The notes below the pieces were generated by a model. That model ran no database searches, was not told where the DNA came from, and worked only from the letters and a program-made list of their open reading frames with translations. Made by a program: the position numbers and the translations under genes. A stretch of 51,942 bases of DNA from Acetofilamentum sp. GTDB lineage: Bacteria; Hydrothermota; 32-111. Below, piece by piece: positions 2,013 through 15,469 of this stretch. The first letter of the stretch is position 1. Each line of letters starts with the position of its first letter. Where the stretch lies: positions 1-51,942 of the forward strand of contig DYMB01000010.1 of NCBI GenBank assembly GCA_020721805.1. The letters are read 5' to 3'.

Positions 2013-3353
2013 ATGAATAGTTATGTATCGCAGGTTATAGATGAAGTAAAGCAGAGATATTACTGGGAAAAAGAGTTTATACAGGCGGTAACCGAAGTTT
2101 TTGAATCTTTATCACTTGTTATGGATAAAGAACCGAAATATAAAAAGTATAGGATTCTTGAAAGACTGGTAGAGCCTGAAAGAACAATTATTTTCAGAGT
2201 TCCCTGGACGGATGATAAAGGTGAAGTTAGAATAAACAGAGGTTATAGGATCGAATTTAATTCAGCACTTGGACCTTATAAAGGTGGATTAAGATTTCAT
2301 TCATCCGTTACACTTTCTATATTAAAATTTCTTGGATTTGAACAGATTTTTAAAAATTCTCTTACAGGACTTCCAATGGGTGGTGGAAAAGGTGGTAGTG
2401 ATTTTGATCTTAAAGGAAAGAGTGAAGGTGAAGTTATGAGATTCTGTCAATCCTTTATGAGTGAACTTTTCAGGCACATAGGTGCGGATACAGATGTTCC
2501 AGCGGGTGATATAGGAGTTGGAGCAAGAGAGATAGGCTACCTTTTCGGTCAATATAAAAAACTCAAGAACGAGTTTACAGGAGTTCTTACAGGCAAAGGT
2601 TTAAACTGGGGCGGTTCTCTGGTAAGACCGGAAGCAACAGGTTTCGGCGTTGTCTATTTTGCTGAAGAGATGCTCAAAACTAAAGGTGAATCACTGGATG
2701 GAAAGACTGTTGCTATAAGTGGTTTTGGAAATGTTGCATGGGGTGCAGCTATAAAAGCCAATCAACTCGGTGCAAAAGTCGTTACCCTTTCAGGCCCAGA
2801 TGGATACATCTATGATCCGGATGGAATTAAAGGAGAAAAGATAGATTATATGCTTGAAATGAGAGCAAGTGGAAGGGATACGGTGAAAGATTATGCAGAT
2901 AAATTTAAAGTTAAATTCTTTGAAAATAGAAGACCATGGGAAGTAAAAGTTGATGTCGTATTACCCTGTGCCACTCAAAATGAGATAGATGGTAATGATG
3001 CCAAAACACTTGTTAAAAATGGCTGTAAATTTGTTGTCGAAGGTTCAAATATGTCATCAACACCCGAGGCTGTTGAAGTTTTCCTCACAAACAAAATACT
3101 CTATTCACCAGGAAAAGCTTCAAATGCTGGGGGAGTCGCAACAAGTGGGCTTGAAATGTCCCAGAATTCGATGAGATTACAATGGACAAGAGAGGAAGTT
3201 GATAAAAGGTTAAAAGAGATAATAGTCAAGATCCATCAGTCATGCGTTGATGCCGCAAAGGATTATGGGACACCGGGAAACTATGTTAACGGAGCAAATA
3301 TAGCAGGTTTCAAAAAAGTTGCTGATGCGATGATAGATCAGGGACTTGTTTGA
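2013..3353 (+). CDS. Glutamate dehydrogenase, NAD-type (gdh2)
   Basis: Second hexameric glutamate dehydrogenase, 446 aa, with the same catalytic set (K90, K114, K126, D166). Its coenzyme domain differs from gdh1: SGFGNVAW at 236-243 and SGPDG at 260-264, followed by YIYDPDGI and MLEMRASGR. This is the pattern I know from the NAD-dependent Clostridium symbiosum enzyme, so a catabolic, deaminating role is inferred. The ATG is preceded by AGGAGG. It lies head to head with gdh1 and is monocistronic, with a terminator at 3391-3414. Residues 150-221 are encoded by DNA identical to gdh1. Cofactor choice is predicted from motif similarity only. Confidence 0.96.
   Translation: MNSYVSQVIDEVKQRYYWEKEFIQAVTEVFESLSLVMDKEPKYKKYRILERLVEPERTIIFRVPWTDDKGEVRINRGYRIEFNSALGPYKGGLRFHSSVTLSILKFLGFEQIFKNSLTGLPMGGGKGGSDFDLKGKSEGEVMRFCQSFMSELFRHIGADTDVPAGDIGVGAREIGYLFGQYKKLKNEFTGVLTGKGLNWGGSLVRPEATGFGVVYFAEEMLKTKGESLDGKTVAISGFGNVAWGAAIKANQLGAKVVTLSGPDGYIYDPDGIKGEKIDYMLEMRASGRDTVKDYADKFKVKFFENRRPWEVKVDVVLPCATQNEIDGNDAKTLVKNGCKFVVEGSNMSSTPEAVEVFLTNKILYSPGKASNAGGVATSGLEMSQNSMRLQWTREEVDKRLKEIIVKIHQSCVDAAKDYGTPGNYVNGANIAGFKKVADAMIDQGLV
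2462..2674 (+). repeat. 213-bp identical inverted repeat, copy in gdh2
   Basis: Partner of 1205-1417 in inverted orientation. Both copies begin exactly 449 nt after the A of their start codon, so the reading frame is in register. The segment between the arms is 1044 bp and contains both 5' gene halves and both promoters. Confidence 0.9.
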
Positions 3354-3390
3354 TCTAAAATTTATAAACTCTAAAACATCTTTTAACGGA

Positions 3391-3414
3391 TGGCTTTTTA
3401 AAGCCAACTGTTTT
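3391..3414 (+). terminator. Terminator of gdh2
   Basis: TGGCTT (3391-3396) pairs with AAGCCA (3401-3406) around a 4-nt loop, with weaker flanking pairing, then a T-rich tail. It sits about 40 bp after the gdh2 stop. Confidence 0.65.
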
Positions 3415-3428
3415 ATTTTAACTATCCC

Positions 3429-3456
3429 TTGACATTTTTATTTTAAAAATTAAATT
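3429..3456 (+). promoter_or_regulatory. Promoter of the Hsp20 gene
   Basis: TTGACA at 3429-3434, 16-bp spacer, TAAATT at 3451-3456, 30 bp before the start codon. No CIRCE-type inverted repeat is visible, so heat control, if any, would come from another factor. Confidence 0.65.
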
Positions 3457-3486
3457 TTATTGTGAAACAAAAAAGGAGGTGATAAT

Positions 3487-3924
3487 ATGAAAAAAGATGT
3501 TCAAAGATTTTCGCCTTTCTCAGAACTTTTCGATCTCAGAAAAGAGATAGATTCTCTTTTCGATGACAGATTTTTTGGCAAAAATTTTATTTCAGAGCCC
3601 AGCTGGATTCCTTCAATGGATGTAGTTGAGAATGAAAAAGAGTTTTTGGTAACCGTAGAGTTGCCCGGTATGAAAAAAGAGGATATAAATGTTTCCATGG
3701 AAAATAATATTTTAACCATTGAAGGAGAAAGGAAGAGCGAAAAAGAGGAGAAAAATAAAACTTTCCATAGGATTGAAAGAGCGTATGGTAAATTTTACAG
3801 ATCGGTAGTTCTTCCTAAAAAAGTTGATGAGAACAACATAAAAGCGACTTTCAAAGATGGTCTTTTGAATATTACCATCGGAAAATCTGAGAAGGAAAAA
3901 TCTAAAACCATTGAAATTTCATAA
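3487..3924 (+). CDS. Small heat-shock protein (Hsp20 / alpha-crystallin)
   Basis: 145 aa, typical of bacterial Hsp20. These cytoplasmic, ATP-independent holdase chaperones assemble into large oligomers. A short N-terminal region (FSPFSELFDLRKEIDSLFDD) precedes the alpha-crystallin domain at about residues 40-133, with VTVELPGMKKEDI and the signature FKDGLLNITI near the end, then a short charged tail. A strong ribosome site, AAGGAGGTGATA, lies directly before ATG. The gene is monocistronic and flanked by hairpins at 3391-3414 and 3925-3953. Confidence 0.96.
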   Translation: MKKDVQRFSPFSELFDLRKEIDSLFDDRFFGKNFISEPSWIPSMDVVENEKEFLVTVELPGMKKEDINVSMENNILTIEGERKSEKEEKNKTFHRIERAYGKFYRSVVLPKKVDENNIKATFKDGLLNITIGKSEKEKSKTIEIS

Positions 3925-3953
3925 AAGTAAGTGAGAGTTTTTCTCACTTACTT
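3925..3953. terminator. Shared hairpin between converging genes
   Basis: A 12-bp perfect stem, 3925-3936 with 3942-3953 (AAGTAAGTGAGA/TCTCACTTACTT), and a 5-nt loop GTTTT. It overlaps the last codons of legB on the other strand, so it probably ends both the Hsp20 transcript and the leftward amino-sugar operon. Confidence 0.7.
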
Positions 3954-4920
3954 ATATCTGATAATCCACAATTTTATCTTCTTTAATGTTTTTTTCAAAC
4001 CAATCGTAAGTTAATTTCAAACCTTCATAAAAATCTGTTTTGGGTTGAAATCCTATCAATTTTTTAGCCAGAGTATTATCTCCAAGAAGCAAATCTACTT
4101 CACACGATTTTTTTCTTATCCTTTTTTCTTCTATCTTTACATTCAATTTTTTACCAGATATTTTTTCAACCATTTGGATGATCTCTTTAATTTTATATGT
4201 TTTTCCACTGCAGATGTTAAAAGTTTTTTGAAAAGTTTTTTTATTATAAAGAATTTTTAAAAAGATGTCGGTTAAGTCATTTACAAAAGTGTAATCTCTT
4301 TTAGTGTAGAGATTCCCTATTTTTATTGTATCATTTTTTATGGCTTGAACTATTATCTGTGGTATGACAGATCTCAAGGATTGTCTTGGTCCAAAGATGT
4401 TGAAAGGTCTTACTATAGTTACGGGTAGATCGAATGCTTTAATGTATGCGTTAGCAAGTTGATCTGCTGCTATTTTTGTTGCTGCGTAAGGGGAATAAGG
4501 ATTCAAAGGATGTTCTTCGTCCATAGGGGTATATTTCGCTGAACCGTAAACTTCAGATGTTGATATAATAATAGTATGTTTTATCTTTCTTAGTTTTGTA
4601 ATCTCAAGAATATTTTTAACACCCTTTATGTTGGTTTCAATATATGAATCCACAGCCTTAAAAGAGTATGGGATCGTTATGAGTGCTGCCAGATTTACAA
4701 TAGAATCGACATCTTCCGTTATATCGTAAAGTAAAGAAAAATCTCTGATATCACCTCTTTCGATCTCTATATTTTTTAAACTTTTTAAATATTTTAAATT
4801 TCCTATATCATCAAAACTATTATAAAAAACAAGGGCTTTTATAAAATATTTTTTAGATAGTCTTTCAACAAGATGACTTCCGATGAAACCGCAACTACCG
4901 GTTATAAGAATTTTCTTCAT
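3952..4920 (-). CDS. legB: LegB-like NAD-dependent sugar-nucleotide 4,6-dehydratase
   Basis: Extended short-chain dehydrogenase/reductase of 322 aa. The N-terminal Rossmann motif GSCGFIGSH (8-16), the TSEVYG segment (121-126) and the catalytic Y145-x3-K149 (YAATK) are all present. Stretches such as LVFYNSFDDIG, LITIPYSFKAVDSYIETN and VRPFNIFGPRQS are the ones I associate with LegB. LegB dehydrates a nucleotide-activated N-acetylglucosamine on the way to legionaminic-type amino sugars. It abuts the PtmE-like nucleotidyltransferase, which would supply the GDP-sugar, and is last in a four-gene leftward operon. Its family as a sugar-nucleotide dehydratase is clear; the exact substrate is inferred. 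The later enzymes of legionaminate synthesis (LegG, LegI, LegH) are not in this window. Confidence 0.85.
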   Translation of the reverse strand: MKKILITGSCGFIGSHLVERLSKKYFIKALVFYNSFDDIGNLKYLKSLKNIEIERGDIRDFSLLYDITEDVDSIVNLAALITIPYSFKAVDSYIETNIKGVKNILEITKLRKIKHTIIISTSEVYGSAKYTPMDEEHPLNPYSPYAATKIAADQLANAYIKAFDLPVTIVRPFNIFGPRQSLRSVIPQIIVQAIKNDTIKIGNLYTKRDYTFVNDLTDIFLKILYNKKTFQKTFNICSGKTYKIKEIIQMVEKISGKKLNVKIEEKRIRKKSCEVDLLLGDNTLAKKLIGFQPKTDFYEGLKLTYDWFEKNIKEDKIVDYQI

Positions 4921-9721: not shown

Positions 9722-11771
9722 TGGGGATCTTTTCTCTGATATAAAATTTTTAAAGGGTGTTGGACCAAAAATGGCTGAGAAACTCAACCTGCTTGGAATC
9801 TATACCAAATATGATCTTTTGATGTATCCACCTTTCAGATACATAGATAGAAAATTGATGCTGGATGAAAATTTTACTGATGGTGGATACTATACCGTTT
9901 TAGGTAAGGTTATCGATTTCGGTGAATTTTATACGAAGAGAGGAAAATATATATTTCAATCGGTTGTCGAAACATCGGCAAAAAATTACCTTTTTTTAAC
10001 ATGGTTTAACAACAGATTTATAAAAAAAAGTATAAATAAGGGAGATATCGCACTCTTCAGTGGCAAAATAAATATTAAAAGAGGATCCTACGAAATGCTG
10101 CATCCAGATTTTGAAATATTTCAGGATGATTTTATGGAACTTATCAACACAGGGAAAATAGTTCCGGTATATCATACGAAAAATGGGATCACTCAAAAAT
10201 ATTTAAGAAAAATAATTTTTTCTCTTATTAAAAGCATTGATGGTATAGAAGAGGATTTACCAGATTATCTTATAAAACAAAAAAACTTTTTATCTTTGAA
10301 GGAATCGATTACAAATCTTCATTTTCCAGAGAATGAGGATAAAAATAGACTTGGATTGAAGAGGTTAAAATATAGCGAACTCTTTTATACTGGACTTATC
10401 GTAGCAAGAAGAAAAATTGAAAACAGTTCGAAATATGTTGAAAAGAATTATGTTGAAAAAAGTTCACTCGTTGAAAATTTTCTTTCTTCACTTGATTTTT
10501 CTTTAACCGATGATCAAAAAAGATCGATAGAGGAGATAATAAAAGATATGAAGGAAACAAAACCTATGAATAGACTGCTTATGGGAGATGTTGGTGTTGG
10601 GAAGACGGTTGTTGCAACCGTTGCAATTCTTGTTGCCATAGATAGTGGTTATCAATCCGCTTTGATGGCACCTACAGAAATACTTGCCCAGCAACATTAT
10701 ATAAAAATTAAAGAATCGGTTGAGAAACTTGGTGTTAGAGTTGAACTGTTAACTTCATCAATTTCAGATAAAAAAGAAAAATATTCACGGATAAAGGAAG
10801 GTAAAATCGATCTTGTTGTGGGGACACATTCTTTGATAAGAGATGAGGTAGTCTTTAAAAATTTGAAACTTGTTATAGTGGATGAACAACACAGGTTTGG
10901 CGTTATTCATAGGTCAACGCTTAAAGAAAAGGGAAAGGATGTTGATTATCTTGTTATGACAGCAACACCGATTCCAAGATCTCTGTATTTGGCTTTATAT
11001 GGTGATATGGATCTTTCTATGATAAGGCAGAGACCTTCAATTCAGAAAGTGGTAAAAACTAAATGGGTTTCTTCTACTGGATTAAAAAAAATGTACGATT
11101 TTATAAAAAAGAGAATATTGGACGGTGAGAAAACTTTTATAGTTTGTCCGGCTATAGAAGGTGAGGATGAGGCTGATTACGATTCTGTAAAAAAAGTTTA
11201 TGATAACCTTTCAAAAACCTATCTAAAGGGTTATAGATTGGGTATGATCCATTCAAAACTTAACTATAGAGAACAGGAAAAGATTTTAAAGGATCTTAGA
11301 GATGGCTTGATAGATGTTCTTATAGGAACAACTATAGTCGAAGTTGGTCTTGATATAAAGGATGCAACCATAATGGTTATACTTTCAGCCGAAAGATTTG
11401 GACTCTCACAGTTGCATCAGTTGAGGGGAAGGGTGGGAAGAGGCGAAAGGCAATCCTTCTGTTTTGTTGTTTCATCTGAAGATATAACCGAGGAAGCTAT
11501 AAACAGATTGAAAGTCTTTTCAAGATATAATGATGGTTTTAAAATTTCAGAATACGATTTAAAATTCAGAGGCCCGGGAGAACTCTGGGGGAAGAAACAG
11601 AGTGGAATACCGATATTCAAATTTGCCAATTTTTTTGAAGATATGATTCTTATGAAAGAAGCCTTTTTCGATGCAGAAAAAATTTTAAAAAATGATATGA
11701 ATCTATTGAAAAATGAAGATAAAGTAATTAAAATCAATTTAGAAAGGAAATCGAATGAAAAGGTTGATTGA
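9714..11771 (+). CDS. recG: ATP-dependent DNA helicase RecG
   Basis: 685 aa, near the usual RecG length. It unwinds and regresses stalled replication forks and Holliday junctions. The N-terminal wedge/OB-fold region is about 1-255, with helix-hairpin-helix-like LKGVGPKMAEKL at 13-24. Then follow the helicase motifs: Walker A GDVGVGKT (291-298), motif II DEQH (390-393), motif III TATPIPRS, and motifs V-VI VEVGLDIKDA and QLHQLRGRVGRG. The C-terminal segment KFRGPGELWGKKQSG is characteristic of RecG. It overlaps the exported protein before it and the lipoprotein after it. Confidence 0.97.
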   Translation: MNNGDLFSDIKFLKGVGPKMAEKLNLLGIYTKYDLLMYPPFRYIDRKLMLDENFTDGGYYTVLGKVIDFGEFYTKRGKYIFQSVVETSAKNYLFLTWFNNRFIKKSINKGDIALFSGKINIKRGSYEMLHPDFEIFQDDFMELINTGKIVPVYHTKNGITQKYLRKIIFSLIKSIDGIEEDLPDYLIKQKNFLSLKESITNLHFPENEDKNRLGLKRLKYSELFYTGLIVARRKIENSSKYVEKNYVEKSSLVENFLSSLDFSLTDDQKRSIEEIIKDMKETKPMNRLLMGDVGVGKTVVATVAILVAIDSGYQSALMAPTEILAQQHYIKIKESVEKLGVRVELLTSSISDKKEKYSRIKEGKIDLVVGTHSLIRDEVVFKNLKLVIVDEQHRFGVIHRSTLKEKGKDVDYLVMTATPIPRSLYLALYGDMDLSMIRQRPSIQKVVKTKWVSSTGLKKMYDFIKKRILDGEKTFIVCPAIEGEDEADYDSVKKVYDNLSKTYLKGYRLGMIHSKLNYREQEKILKDLRDGLIDVLIGTTIVEVGLDIKDATIMVILSAERFGLSQLHQLRGRVGRGERQSFCFVVSSEDITEEAINRLKVFSRYNDGFKISEYDLKFRGPGELWGKKQSGIPIFKFANFFEDMILMKEAFFDAEKILKNDMNLLKNEDKVIKINLERKSNEKVD

Positions 11772-12768
11772 ATTTTCTCTGGTTATCATTTTAGTTTTTT
11801 TTATCTCAAACTGTCAGAGTAAAAAAAATGTAAAAGATTTTGCTATTGGAAAAGTTGAAGAGATAATAATCGCTGCAAGTGAAGTCGTATACTCAAATGT
11901 TGAAAAAGAGTTGCTTGACGCTCTTTATATTGATGTAGATCTCCCTGTGAAAGAGTCAGTTTTTTACACAAAGTATTCAACTCTTGAAAAACTTTATATC
12001 CATAAAAAAAATAAAAATATAGTTTTTATTACCAACATCTATAGAAATGATGAATACTCTAATCTGATCAATTCGTTTCTCACTTCTGAGGATATGGAAC
12101 TTATCAAAAAAGAAAAAGTATCCTTCTTTAAAATTTATGATGGTTTTGCTTTAGGACAAAACATTTTAATAATAGCCGGAACAGATGATTCGTTAATTGG
12201 AAATTCTATAAGATTGAACAAAGAAAAAATTCAAAAATTTTTTATAGATAATTCTTATCGTAGTGTTGAAATAATGACTTATTTTACAGGTGAGAATAAA
12301 AGGCTATCTTCTTTGATATTTGAAAAGATGAATATCAAAATAAAAGTCCCATCCGATTACAGCACCGCTTTCTATGACAAAAATCAACCAGCATATAGTA
12401 TTGTTGCAAGATATCCAGACAGATTTATAACTATAATAAAAGAGAGTGACCTTAGAAATTTTAATTATAATTTTATAATTAAAACAAAAAACAAGATTGG
12501 AAAGGAGAAATTTTACGGTGATTATATAGATACATCTTATGTAAAATTGAAAAAGGAAGAAACTCAATTTAAAGGGTATAATGCACTTTACATTTCTGGA
12601 GTTTATGCAAACAATGAAGAGAATCTCGGTGGTCCATTCTTCACATATCTTGTGAATACAGGTAAAGAACTCGTATATATCGATTGTCATATTTTTTATC
12701 CTGGAGAGAGAAAATTTTTTAAACTTATGGAATTGAAATCTATTGTGAACACTATGGAGTTTCAATGA
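11755..12768 (+). CDS. DUF4837-like lipoprotein
   Basis: 337 aa with a signal peptide ending in a lipobox-like FISNC (Cys20; Asn before Cys is unusual). The rest matches my picture of DUF4837, a lipoprotein family of the Bacteroidota and relatives: an N-terminal segment with KESVFYTKYSTLEKL, a central IKIKVPSDYSTAF, and ENLGGPFFTYLV, ending in a short strand (NTMEF). Function is unknown for the family. It overlaps the end of recG by 17 nt and the next gene by 4 nt. Family assignment is moderate. Confidence 0.65.
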   Translation: MKRLIEFSLVIILVFFISNCQSKKNVKDFAIGKVEEIIIAASEVVYSNVEKELLDALYIDVDLPVKESVFYTKYSTLEKLYIHKKNKNIVFITNIYRNDEYSNLINSFLTSEDMELIKKEKVSFFKIYDGFALGQNILIIAGTDDSLIGNSIRLNKEKIQKFFIDNSYRSVEIMTYFTGENKRLSSLIFEKMNIKIKVPSDYSTAFYDKNQPAYSIVARYPDRFITIIKESDLRNFNYNFIIKTKNKIGKEKFYGDYIDTSYVKLKKEETQFKGYNALYISGVYANNEENLGGPFFTYLVNTGKELVYIDCHIFYPGERKFFKLMELKSIVNTMEFQ

Positions 12769-13016
12769 AAAAAGTTTTGCTCCTTATCGGTAAATGGTCA
12801 AAAGAATCCGATGAGGTTAAAGAGTTCTGGATAAAGTATAGAAAGAAAAAAAATTTTATTTTGAACATCTATGATGTTTCAACCGTTGAAGGTTCTAAAA
12901 TGATGGATAGGTATGAAGTTTCAATAGTTCCGGTAACAATCATAGATGAAGAGATAAAATTTATAGGACTTCCAGATTTTAAAAAGGTGGAGGAGATTTT
13001 TGAACAAGAGGGTTAA
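12765..13016 (+). CDS. Small thioredoxin-fold protein lacking the CxxC
   Basis: 83 aa. Order beta-alpha-beta-alpha-beta-beta-alpha with VLLLIGKWSKES at the place of the active site and SIVPVTII giving the cis-proline loop typical of thioredoxins. There is no cysteine anywhere in the protein, so it cannot do dithiol chemistry; it may bind a partner or peptide. It overlaps the upstream lipoprotein by 4 nt and the next gene by 17 nt. No signal peptide, so cytoplasmic. Confidence 0.6.
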   Translation: MKKVLLLIGKWSKESDEVKEFWIKYRKKKNFILNIYDVSTVEGSKMMDRYEVSIVPVTIIDEEIKFIGLPDFKKVEEIFEQEG

Positions 13017-14583
13017 AATTTTTCTATTTTTTATTTTTCTCGCATCGCTCGTTCATTCCAACGAAAAATCTATAATAGAAGCGTTATCCTATCTTTCACT
13101 TACCACTGAAAACCTTTCCATACCTTATGAGAATTTGAAAAGGGATTCATTCAATTTTTTATTGTGTGATGATCTTTTAAAAAAACCACAGAATGTTGAA
13201 CTGGTTTCTGAAAATATAAAATATCTTATAGAAAAATTTAAATACAGTGCTCTTTTTAATTATATTGATAAAAATAGATTTTCAAAACAATCCTATAGAA
13301 TTCCAACAAATTTTAAACCTGATTTACTCTCCAGAGATTACCGAATCCCATATTTTTTGATAGATTCAACGATCGATGATTCTATCTATTATTCACAGGC
13401 TGAAATTTATCTTAACGGATGCAAAGATTTTTATAAAGAGTATAATCTTGTTTTCTTTCTAAATGAGGTTGAAAAAATTTTTTCTCTCGATTCAACTGGT
13501 ATTTTAAAATATTTTGAAGAAAATTACACTCTGTTCAAAAAACTTGGAGTTGATGTGATAATCGATTCGGTTGGAGAGAAGAGTGTTTACCGGATTGATA
13601 AACCAAATGTAATAATTGTAGATTTTGGTGGAGATGATGTTTATTTTGCGGTTAATGAGGGATCTCTTGCGACGGGTTTAAAATCGATAGGAGGAATAAT
13701 AGATTTTAAAGGTAAAGATCAATATTATGGTAAAGGGTTTGATCTCGGCTGTGGTATTTTTGGGGTTGGTTTTATGATAGATAAATCAGGTGATGATCTA
13801 TATAGTTCATCGTTTGCATCGATCGGTTCAGGTTTTTCTGGTATGGGTATACTTTTTGATGATGATGGGAACGATACCTATCTGTCAAGCGGGTTTTCAC
13901 AGGGATTCGGATTCACAAAAGGTATAGGGATAATTTTTGATCTAAAGGGTAATGATGGTTATTTTGTTGAAAATGGTATGATAGATCCCAGAGAAAAAAA
14001 TTACCATTCACATCTTTCACAGGGTTTTGGTTTTGGAATCAGAGATATAGCATCCGGTGGTGTTGGAATTCTTCTGGATCTTTCTGGAAACGATTTTTAT
14101 AAGGGAGAATATTTTGTTCAGGGATCATCCTACTGGTTCGCTTTTGGACTTCTTTACGATAGTACCGGTAGTGATGTATACTCTGCAAGAAGGTATAGTC
14201 AGGGAGCGGGAACACATTTAACTACGGGTGCTCTTTTTGACAGAGAGGGTAACGATGTTTACCTTTCCTGGGGTGTTTCACAGGGGTGCGGGCATGATCT
14301 TTCTTCAGGATTTCTGTTCGATTACTTTGGTGATGATGTTTATAAATCCGATTGGTTAAGCATTGGCGCAGGCAACGATAACGGGAATGGAATACTTATC
14401 GATTTTGAAGGTAACGATAAATATTTTTCACTGGAGGAGAATACTCTTGGATATGGAAATTTTTCAAGAAACACTTTTTCAATAGGTATACTCTTCGATA
14501 AAGATGGTAAAGATCTTTATAATGGGAAAGAACTGAAGACCCTGGTAAAATCAAATCTTGGAGTTTTGATAGATGAAAAATAA
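13000..14583 (+). CDS. Exported repeat protein with 11 G-x-D-x-Y turns
   Basis: 527 aa with a TTG start chosen because GGTGGAGG lies just upstream and a Sec signal peptide (RVKIFLFFIFLASLVHS) follows at once. Residues 21-200 look alpha-helical. From 207 to 507 there are 11 copies of a hydrophobic-D-x-x-G-[N/D/K/S]-D-x-Y motif, starting at 207, 234, 260, 286, 313, 359, 386, 413, 440, 467 and 499. Period is 26-27 residues, with one 46-residue insert. Between them recur [S/V]QGxG or SIGxG and a hydrophobic G-I-[L/I] strand. Regular strands with Asp-rich turns suggest a beta-helix or beta-roll, possibly binding calcium. I do not recognise a named family. It overlaps the genes on both sides. Confidence 0.8.
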   Translation: MNKRVKIFLFFIFLASLVHSNEKSIIEALSYLSLTTENLSIPYENLKRDSFNFLLCDDLLKKPQNVELVSENIKYLIEKFKYSALFNYIDKNRFSKQSYRIPTNFKPDLLSRDYRIPYFLIDSTIDDSIYYSQAEIYLNGCKDFYKEYNLVFFLNEVEKIFSLDSTGILKYFEENYTLFKKLGVDVIIDSVGEKSVYRIDKPNVIIVDFGGDDVYFAVNEGSLATGLKSIGGIIDFKGKDQYYGKGFDLGCGIFGVGFMIDKSGDDLYSSSFASIGSGFSGMGILFDDDGNDTYLSSGFSQGFGFTKGIGIIFDLKGNDGYFVENGMIDPREKNYHSHLSQGFGFGIRDIASGGVGILLDLSGNDFYKGEYFVQGSSYWFAFGLLYDSTGSDVYSARRYSQGAGTHLTTGALFDREGNDVYLSWGVSQGCGHDLSSGFLFDYFGDDVYKSDWLSIGAGNDNGNGILIDFEGNDKYFSLEENTLGYGNFSRNTFSIGILFDKDGKDLYNGKELKTLVKSNLGVLIDEK

Positions 14584-15469
14584 ATTTTTGTTATTTTTTA
14601 TATTCTTTTTGAGTTTAAAAATTTTCTCTTTAGATGATATTTCCTTTACCGATATAATAAAACAACTTGATTTTTATGAAGATTCCACCCAAAAAAGATT
14701 GGATTCTCTTCTTCTTACAAATTATACTGATAAAACACTGAATTATATGATAGATAAACTAAAAGGTAAAGATTGGTATTTTAAAACCATAGCTTTAAGG
14801 ATTTTAAAAAAGTATGAGGATAAAGAGAAACTTTTTTCGTTATCCAATGAAAATAATATTGAAAGGTTATACTTTTTTAAAATTTTTGAGGATAGAGTTG
14901 AGTATCTTGAATCTTTTTCAAATGATGATTTTAAGACTTACGAATTATCCTCTTATATAGATTATCTTGAAAAAAAGAAGGATATCGTAAGATTGTTTTC
15001 TTTTCTTGGAAAAAATGTGAACGATTATATTATCATAAAGGTACTGGATGGAATAACTTCTCTTTATGAGGATAGTATATCAAACCATAATGTAATAAAA
15101 AATTATGATGTTTTTAAAAATCTTATACAGAAAAAAAATATAAGAATCAATAAAAGTTTATCAAAACTTCTTTCAAAATATTTTCAAGATTCTCTTTCCT
15201 TATTTTTTGATGAAAAAAGTTTAAATGATGTTTCAAATCTCTCACTCTATATTGAAACTTTAACCTTACTTAAAAAAAAGGTTGATCTGAAACTTCTGGA
15301 AAATTTTTACAGCAAGTTTAGAACAAAAGATTATTTTTATATGGATTATGTTTTAGAAAATTATTTTAAAGTTTTGAAAAAGGAGGATCTGGAAATGATC
15401 GATAGAGATATTATAAATAAACATATAAGAGATATAATTAAAAATAGTAATGGAGAAAATAATGGATAA
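14573..15469 (+). CDS. Exported alpha-solenoid-like protein, function unknown
   Basis: 298 aa. The N-terminus is a Sec signal peptide (Phe/Leu core to about residue 18). The mature region is a series of amphipathic helix pairs, for example [20 protein letters not shown] and repeated L-x-x-x-L-x-x-Y spacing, suggesting HEAT- or TPR-like repeats. It overlaps the repeat protein upstream by 11 nt, so the two are probably made together and could form one periplasmic or surface assembly; that is inference. No catalytic motif seen. Confidence 0.6.

Follow-up and report, generated by a model that had tools for sequence, protein, structure and literature searches.

The locus considered here raises the question of what fold and what function belong to a probably exported protein built largely from a regular, Asp-rich repeat. 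The window analyzed is a stretch of 51,942 nucleotides of contig DYMB01000010.1 from an Acetofilamentum species, and the gene for this protein, an open reading frame with homologues in two phyla, lies at positions 13000-14583, a span that includes the stop codon (527 amino acids; it and the parts of the locus placed between 12989 and 15469 below are on the + strand). A Shine-Dalgarno-like sequence, GGAGGAG (12989-12995), stands 4 nt ahead of a TTG start. The first 20 residues (MNKRVKIFLFFIFLASLVHS, 13000-13059) read as a probable Sec signal peptide and relatives have signal-like N-termini, so the protein would be exported by the Sec route. An N-terminal domain without a family match (13060-13605) follows and is probably helical: residues ~25-175 are helices in the AlphaFold model, at very low confidence (pLDDT mostly <50). 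Self-identity, the repeat consensus and coevolution together support a β-solenoid domain of 11 repeats (residues 203-512, 13606-14535).

The first-pass annotation had described this reading frame as carrying 11 repeats, and both its coordinates and the motif proved correct: there are 11 matches to DxxG[NDKS]Dx[YF], against a mean of 0.056 and a maximum of 2 in composition-preserving shuffles of the region. The spacings of these motifs are, in order, 27, 26, 26, 27, 46, 27, 27, 27, 27 and 32, so the proposed period of 26-27 residues holds for 8 of the 10 spacings and fails for the other two, which reflect a 19-20-residue insert after repeat 5 (46) and a longer repeat 10 (32). The main part of the insert falls at about residues 326-339 (13975-14016), within the 46-residue repeat 5, and nearly all relatives share this position. 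Self-identity is maximal at lag 27 (23.5%) and again at lag 54 (17%). The S-Q-G-x-G element, also described earlier as recurrent, is exact in 4 of the 11 repeats, and variants occur in others. Pooling 155 repeats from 24 family members gives the consensus L-I-D-x-x-G-N-D-x-Y-x-[SA]-x-x-[YF]-S-Q-G-A-G-x-x-x-G-x-G-I, in which hydrophobic positions alternate toward the end of each repeat. Motif number across the family is mostly 10-12, with a 46-47-residue step common to almost all members, and the step pattern 27, 26, 26, 27, 47, 27, 27, 27, 27, 33 recurs in the second phylum among the 11 members included.

Repeats of the window protein and its relatives have no match in Pfam, NCBIfam, PHROGs or the sequences of the PDB, and no account of the motif or of such a family turned up in a literature search. 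The claim that the repeat family is undescribed therefore holds as far as the searched libraries go; the class of fold is already known. Weak matches to type III pantothenate kinase, SBBP and DUF6329 fell below the cut-off and were discarded. A repeat-only profile finds relatives in 115 of 147 genomes and 66 of 79 genera of the organism's own phylum, and in 94 of 99 genomes of a second phylum, Zixibacteriota, which was entered through one named match, a Candidatus Zixiibacteriota genome. These profile searches covered the two phyla, and elsewhere the genome collection was covered by one narrow pattern scan; neither tblastn nor a degenerate pattern found a relative in phages, plasmids or viral contigs. 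The window's own genome holds elsewhere a second, longer copy, a long form with a helical C-terminus. Another relative (locus L053, 4890-8222) is a family member of 1110 amino acids that carries an extra region and whose branch is very long.

Information on the fold came from structure models and from coevolution. Two AlphaFold2 models, computed with the window protein and one relative as input, had mean pLDDT values of 47 and 49 and pTM values of 0.50 and 0.57, a low confidence explained by an input of just these two sequences, so the models were used as hints only and coevolution was analyzed in an alignment of 166 distinct homologues, which amount to 104 effective sequences at 80% identity. 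Couplings between the same positions of successive repeats dominate (z 22.9), while shifts of 2 give z of about 7, shifts of 4 give z 4.6 and odd shifts give z 1.5-3.1; the coevolution signal, like self-identity, is maximal at 27. Because the couplings fall at exactly one repeat distance, the repeats very probably wind into a parallel, in-register β-solenoid of stacked coils, in line with the earlier proposal of one β-helix coil per repeat. Shared repeat ancestry may partly inflate same-position couplings, for which their decay with distance serves as a control: z drops to 8.4, 4.7 and 3.6 for repeats two, three and four apart, which argues against shared ancestry as the main cause. Three Foldseek searches against PDB and BFVD gave no reliable match; the PDB matches of both weak models were mostly β-helices, none of them significant (E 0.6 or worse).

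The top Foldseek match of the full model was region IV of MpAFP (MpIBP), the Marinomonas ice-binding adhesin (PDB 3p4g), a calcium-bound β-helix (E 2.3, TM-score by target 0.43). Region IV is a solenoid whose xGTGND turn binds calcium on that one edge only (PMC6891781, PMC3492233), and the window protein likewise has a GND turn on one edge of its predicted coils. The two differ in that region IV repeats span 19-21 residues (xGTGNDxuxuGGxuxGxux), whereas those of the window protein span 26-27 and carry an extra near-invariant Asp, in the lack of any sequence match between them, and in that region IV is part of a 1.5-MDa adhesin. By analogy with the turns of RTX proteins and, more closely, of MpAFP region IV, it is plausible that the DxxGND turns bind calcium, as the first-pass annotation proposed. 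If the solenoid does use calcium turns, the calcium β-roll principle would extend to a longer coil and a different motif.

Gene linkage ties the family to HEAT-repeat proteins. Members of a long subfamily (~860-1040 amino acids) carry HEAT repeats fused at their C-terminus, recognized by Pfam HEAT (PF13646) in 7 members. In the short subfamily of the organism's own phylum, the next gene encodes an exported HEAT-repeat protein with Pfam matches in 4 relatives, and at short-form loci of the second phylum the next gene has a HEAT-profile match in 11 of 11 cases examined, several with a 4-nt overlap. Several other subfamilies that were sampled had no adjacent HEAT gene. Forms whose next gene encodes HEAT repeats cluster in a tree, where a single origin is weakly supported. 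The window solenoid protein itself contains none of these repeats. The next gene (14573-15469) overlaps the solenoid gene by 11 nt and encodes an exported protein of 298 amino acids that, from its reading frame, position and profile, is probably a diverged equivalent of the HEAT partner; the equivalent gene adjoins the solenoid gene in 5 of 5 family genomes, in one case with a contig break lying between the two. The link is moderate: hhalign with a deeper set of HEAT partners gave E 5.8e-5 and a probability of 66% over 51 columns, an earlier comparison with just four HEAT partners was not significant, and the Pfam HEAT profile has no match in this reading frame. Physical contact between the solenoid and the HEAT-repeat protein is suggested by this linkage.

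The surrounding genes show further features. A DUF4837 protein is encoded just upstream (11755-12768), and the order recG, DUF4837, solenoid, downstream partner, deaminase-like gene is kept in the family's other genomes; in one relative (L032) the recG homologue is split in two overlapping reading frames (2197-3411 and 3402-4166). A thioredoxin-like reading frame at 12765-13016 of the window (Pfam Thioredoxin_3, E 7.6e-6), which contains no cysteine, shares 17 nt with the solenoid gene. Farther away, two similar, divergently oriented genes that read as glutamate dehydrogenase-like lie adjacent to one another (520-1866 and 2013-3353).

Conservation across the 166 homologues points to where a function might reside. 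Apart from the motif and glycines, polar or aromatic residues conserved at 85% or more are restricted to repeats 4-8, and seven of them reach 97-100%: R348 (165/166; 14041-14043); Y378 and W379 in repeat 6 (163/166 each; 14131-14136); Q401 (165/166) and H406 (166/166) in repeat 7 (14200-14217); and H432 and D433 in repeat 8 (161/166 and 165/166; 14293-14298). In the low-confidence full-length model, residues 378-379, 405-406 and 432-433 form two-residue turns opposite the Asp turns, so that W379, H406 and D433 would align on neighbouring coils. This alignment suggests a functional site, and the conserved patch, most of which lies on the other edge of the coils from the Asp turns, is probably a binding or catalytic site. 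The first-pass annotation had mentioned neither this patch nor the HEAT partner, the fixed number of repeats or the spread over two phyla.

The best explanation overall, which we give a little less than an even chance of being right, is that the protein is an exported, calcium-edged solenoid with a conserved site that acts with the HEAT protein on a component of the cell envelope. After secretion through the Sec pathway, the C-terminal part would coil into a parallel, in-register β-solenoid of about eleven coils, with the DxxGND turns stacked on one edge and probably holding a row of calcium ions. Coils 6-8 would present Y378, W379, H406, H432 and D433 on their other edge, near R348, as a binding or catalytic site whose target may be an envelope molecule. 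The HEAT-repeat protein, whether encoded by the next gene or fused at the C-terminus, would work with the solenoid, probably as a scaffold or adaptor. Of this picture, the repeats, the solenoid topology (from coevolution), the conserved residues and the HEAT linkage in relatives are computed results, whereas calcium, the Sec route, a functional role of the patch, contact with the HEAT protein and the envelope ligand are inferred.

A catalytic role competes seriously with a binding one, although we consider it unlikely. Many β-helix proteins are polysaccharide enzymes, and the protein could be a β-helix enzyme such as an envelope polysaccharide lyase, hydrolase or esterase, with R348, Y378, H406, H432 and D433 as catalytic residues. 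Near-invariant polar residues clustered on neighbouring coils would suit such a role, polysaccharide enzymes occur among the non-significant Foldseek matches, and in one relative the end of the next gene reads like a lytic transglycosylase (locus L041, 5833-9925, where the solenoid gene overlaps that gene). Against it, no carbohydrate enzyme family was matched, and the conservation also suits a binding or metal site. The known right-handed parallel β-helix enzymes (pectate lyases, PL6 lyases, tailspikes) resemble the window protein in their parallel coils, with Foldseek matches at chance level and no Pfam match, and it differs from them in having Asp turns on every coil and a HEAT partner. In its most far-reaching form, which we consider speculative, the family would be a new extracytoplasmic enzyme class on a calcium-stiffened β-solenoid, HEAT-paired and responsible for an envelope function that is widely retained in at least two phyla, with R348, Y378, W379, H406, H432 and D433 forming an active site across neighbouring coils.

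It is doubtful that the protein is purely structural, that is, a calcium-stiffened rigid spacer, surface coat or adhesin in which the conserved residues serve folding. Its regular coils, predicted export and likeness to an adhesin solenoid fit such a role, whereas three observations speak against it: the number of repeats and the insert hardly vary over two phyla, unlike in adhesins of variable length; Arg, His, Trp and Asp are kept at single places in repeats 5-8 rather than in every repeat; and the HEAT partner is retained. An array of variable-number adhesin repeats was likewise rejected, and we know of no invariant catalytic-like patch in MpAFP region IV.

An antiparallel arrangement with two strands per repeat, either an outer-membrane β-barrel or a MORN-like hairpin array, is very improbable. 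It would accommodate the low-confidence models, which show each repeat as two strands joined by short turns, as well as the glycine-rich alternation and the predicted export, but antiparallel coupling patterns reach a z of at most 4.8, far below the parallel in-register value, neither a MORN nor a barrel match was found, and the PDB Foldseek matches are mostly parallel solenoids. MORN-like hairpins were rejected on the lack of a profile match and the weak antiparallel signal. Least credible of all is a divergent RTX β-roll protein that leaves the cell through type I secretion. The xxGNDxY turn does resemble the RTX and MpAFP calcium turns, and it shares with RTX (PF00353) a Gly-Asn-Asp followed by a hydrophobic residue, but there is no PF00353 match, GGxGxD occurs in 0 of the 11 repeats, the period is 26-27 rather than 9 (18 per coil in RTX) or 18-19, and a signal peptide is read at the N-terminus where RTX proteins have a C-terminal secretion signal. 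Membership in RTX was rejected on these grounds, and the first-pass view that the repeat is neither an RTX nonapeptide nor an NHL or PQQ blade agrees with the lack of any family match and the period of 27.

For the proposed solenoid, the fixed repeat number, near-invariant residues and HEAT pairing provide precise handles on function. A family that most genomes of both phyla retain, and that the searched libraries lack, marks a common and as yet unnamed function that is probably linked to the cell envelope of these bacteria.
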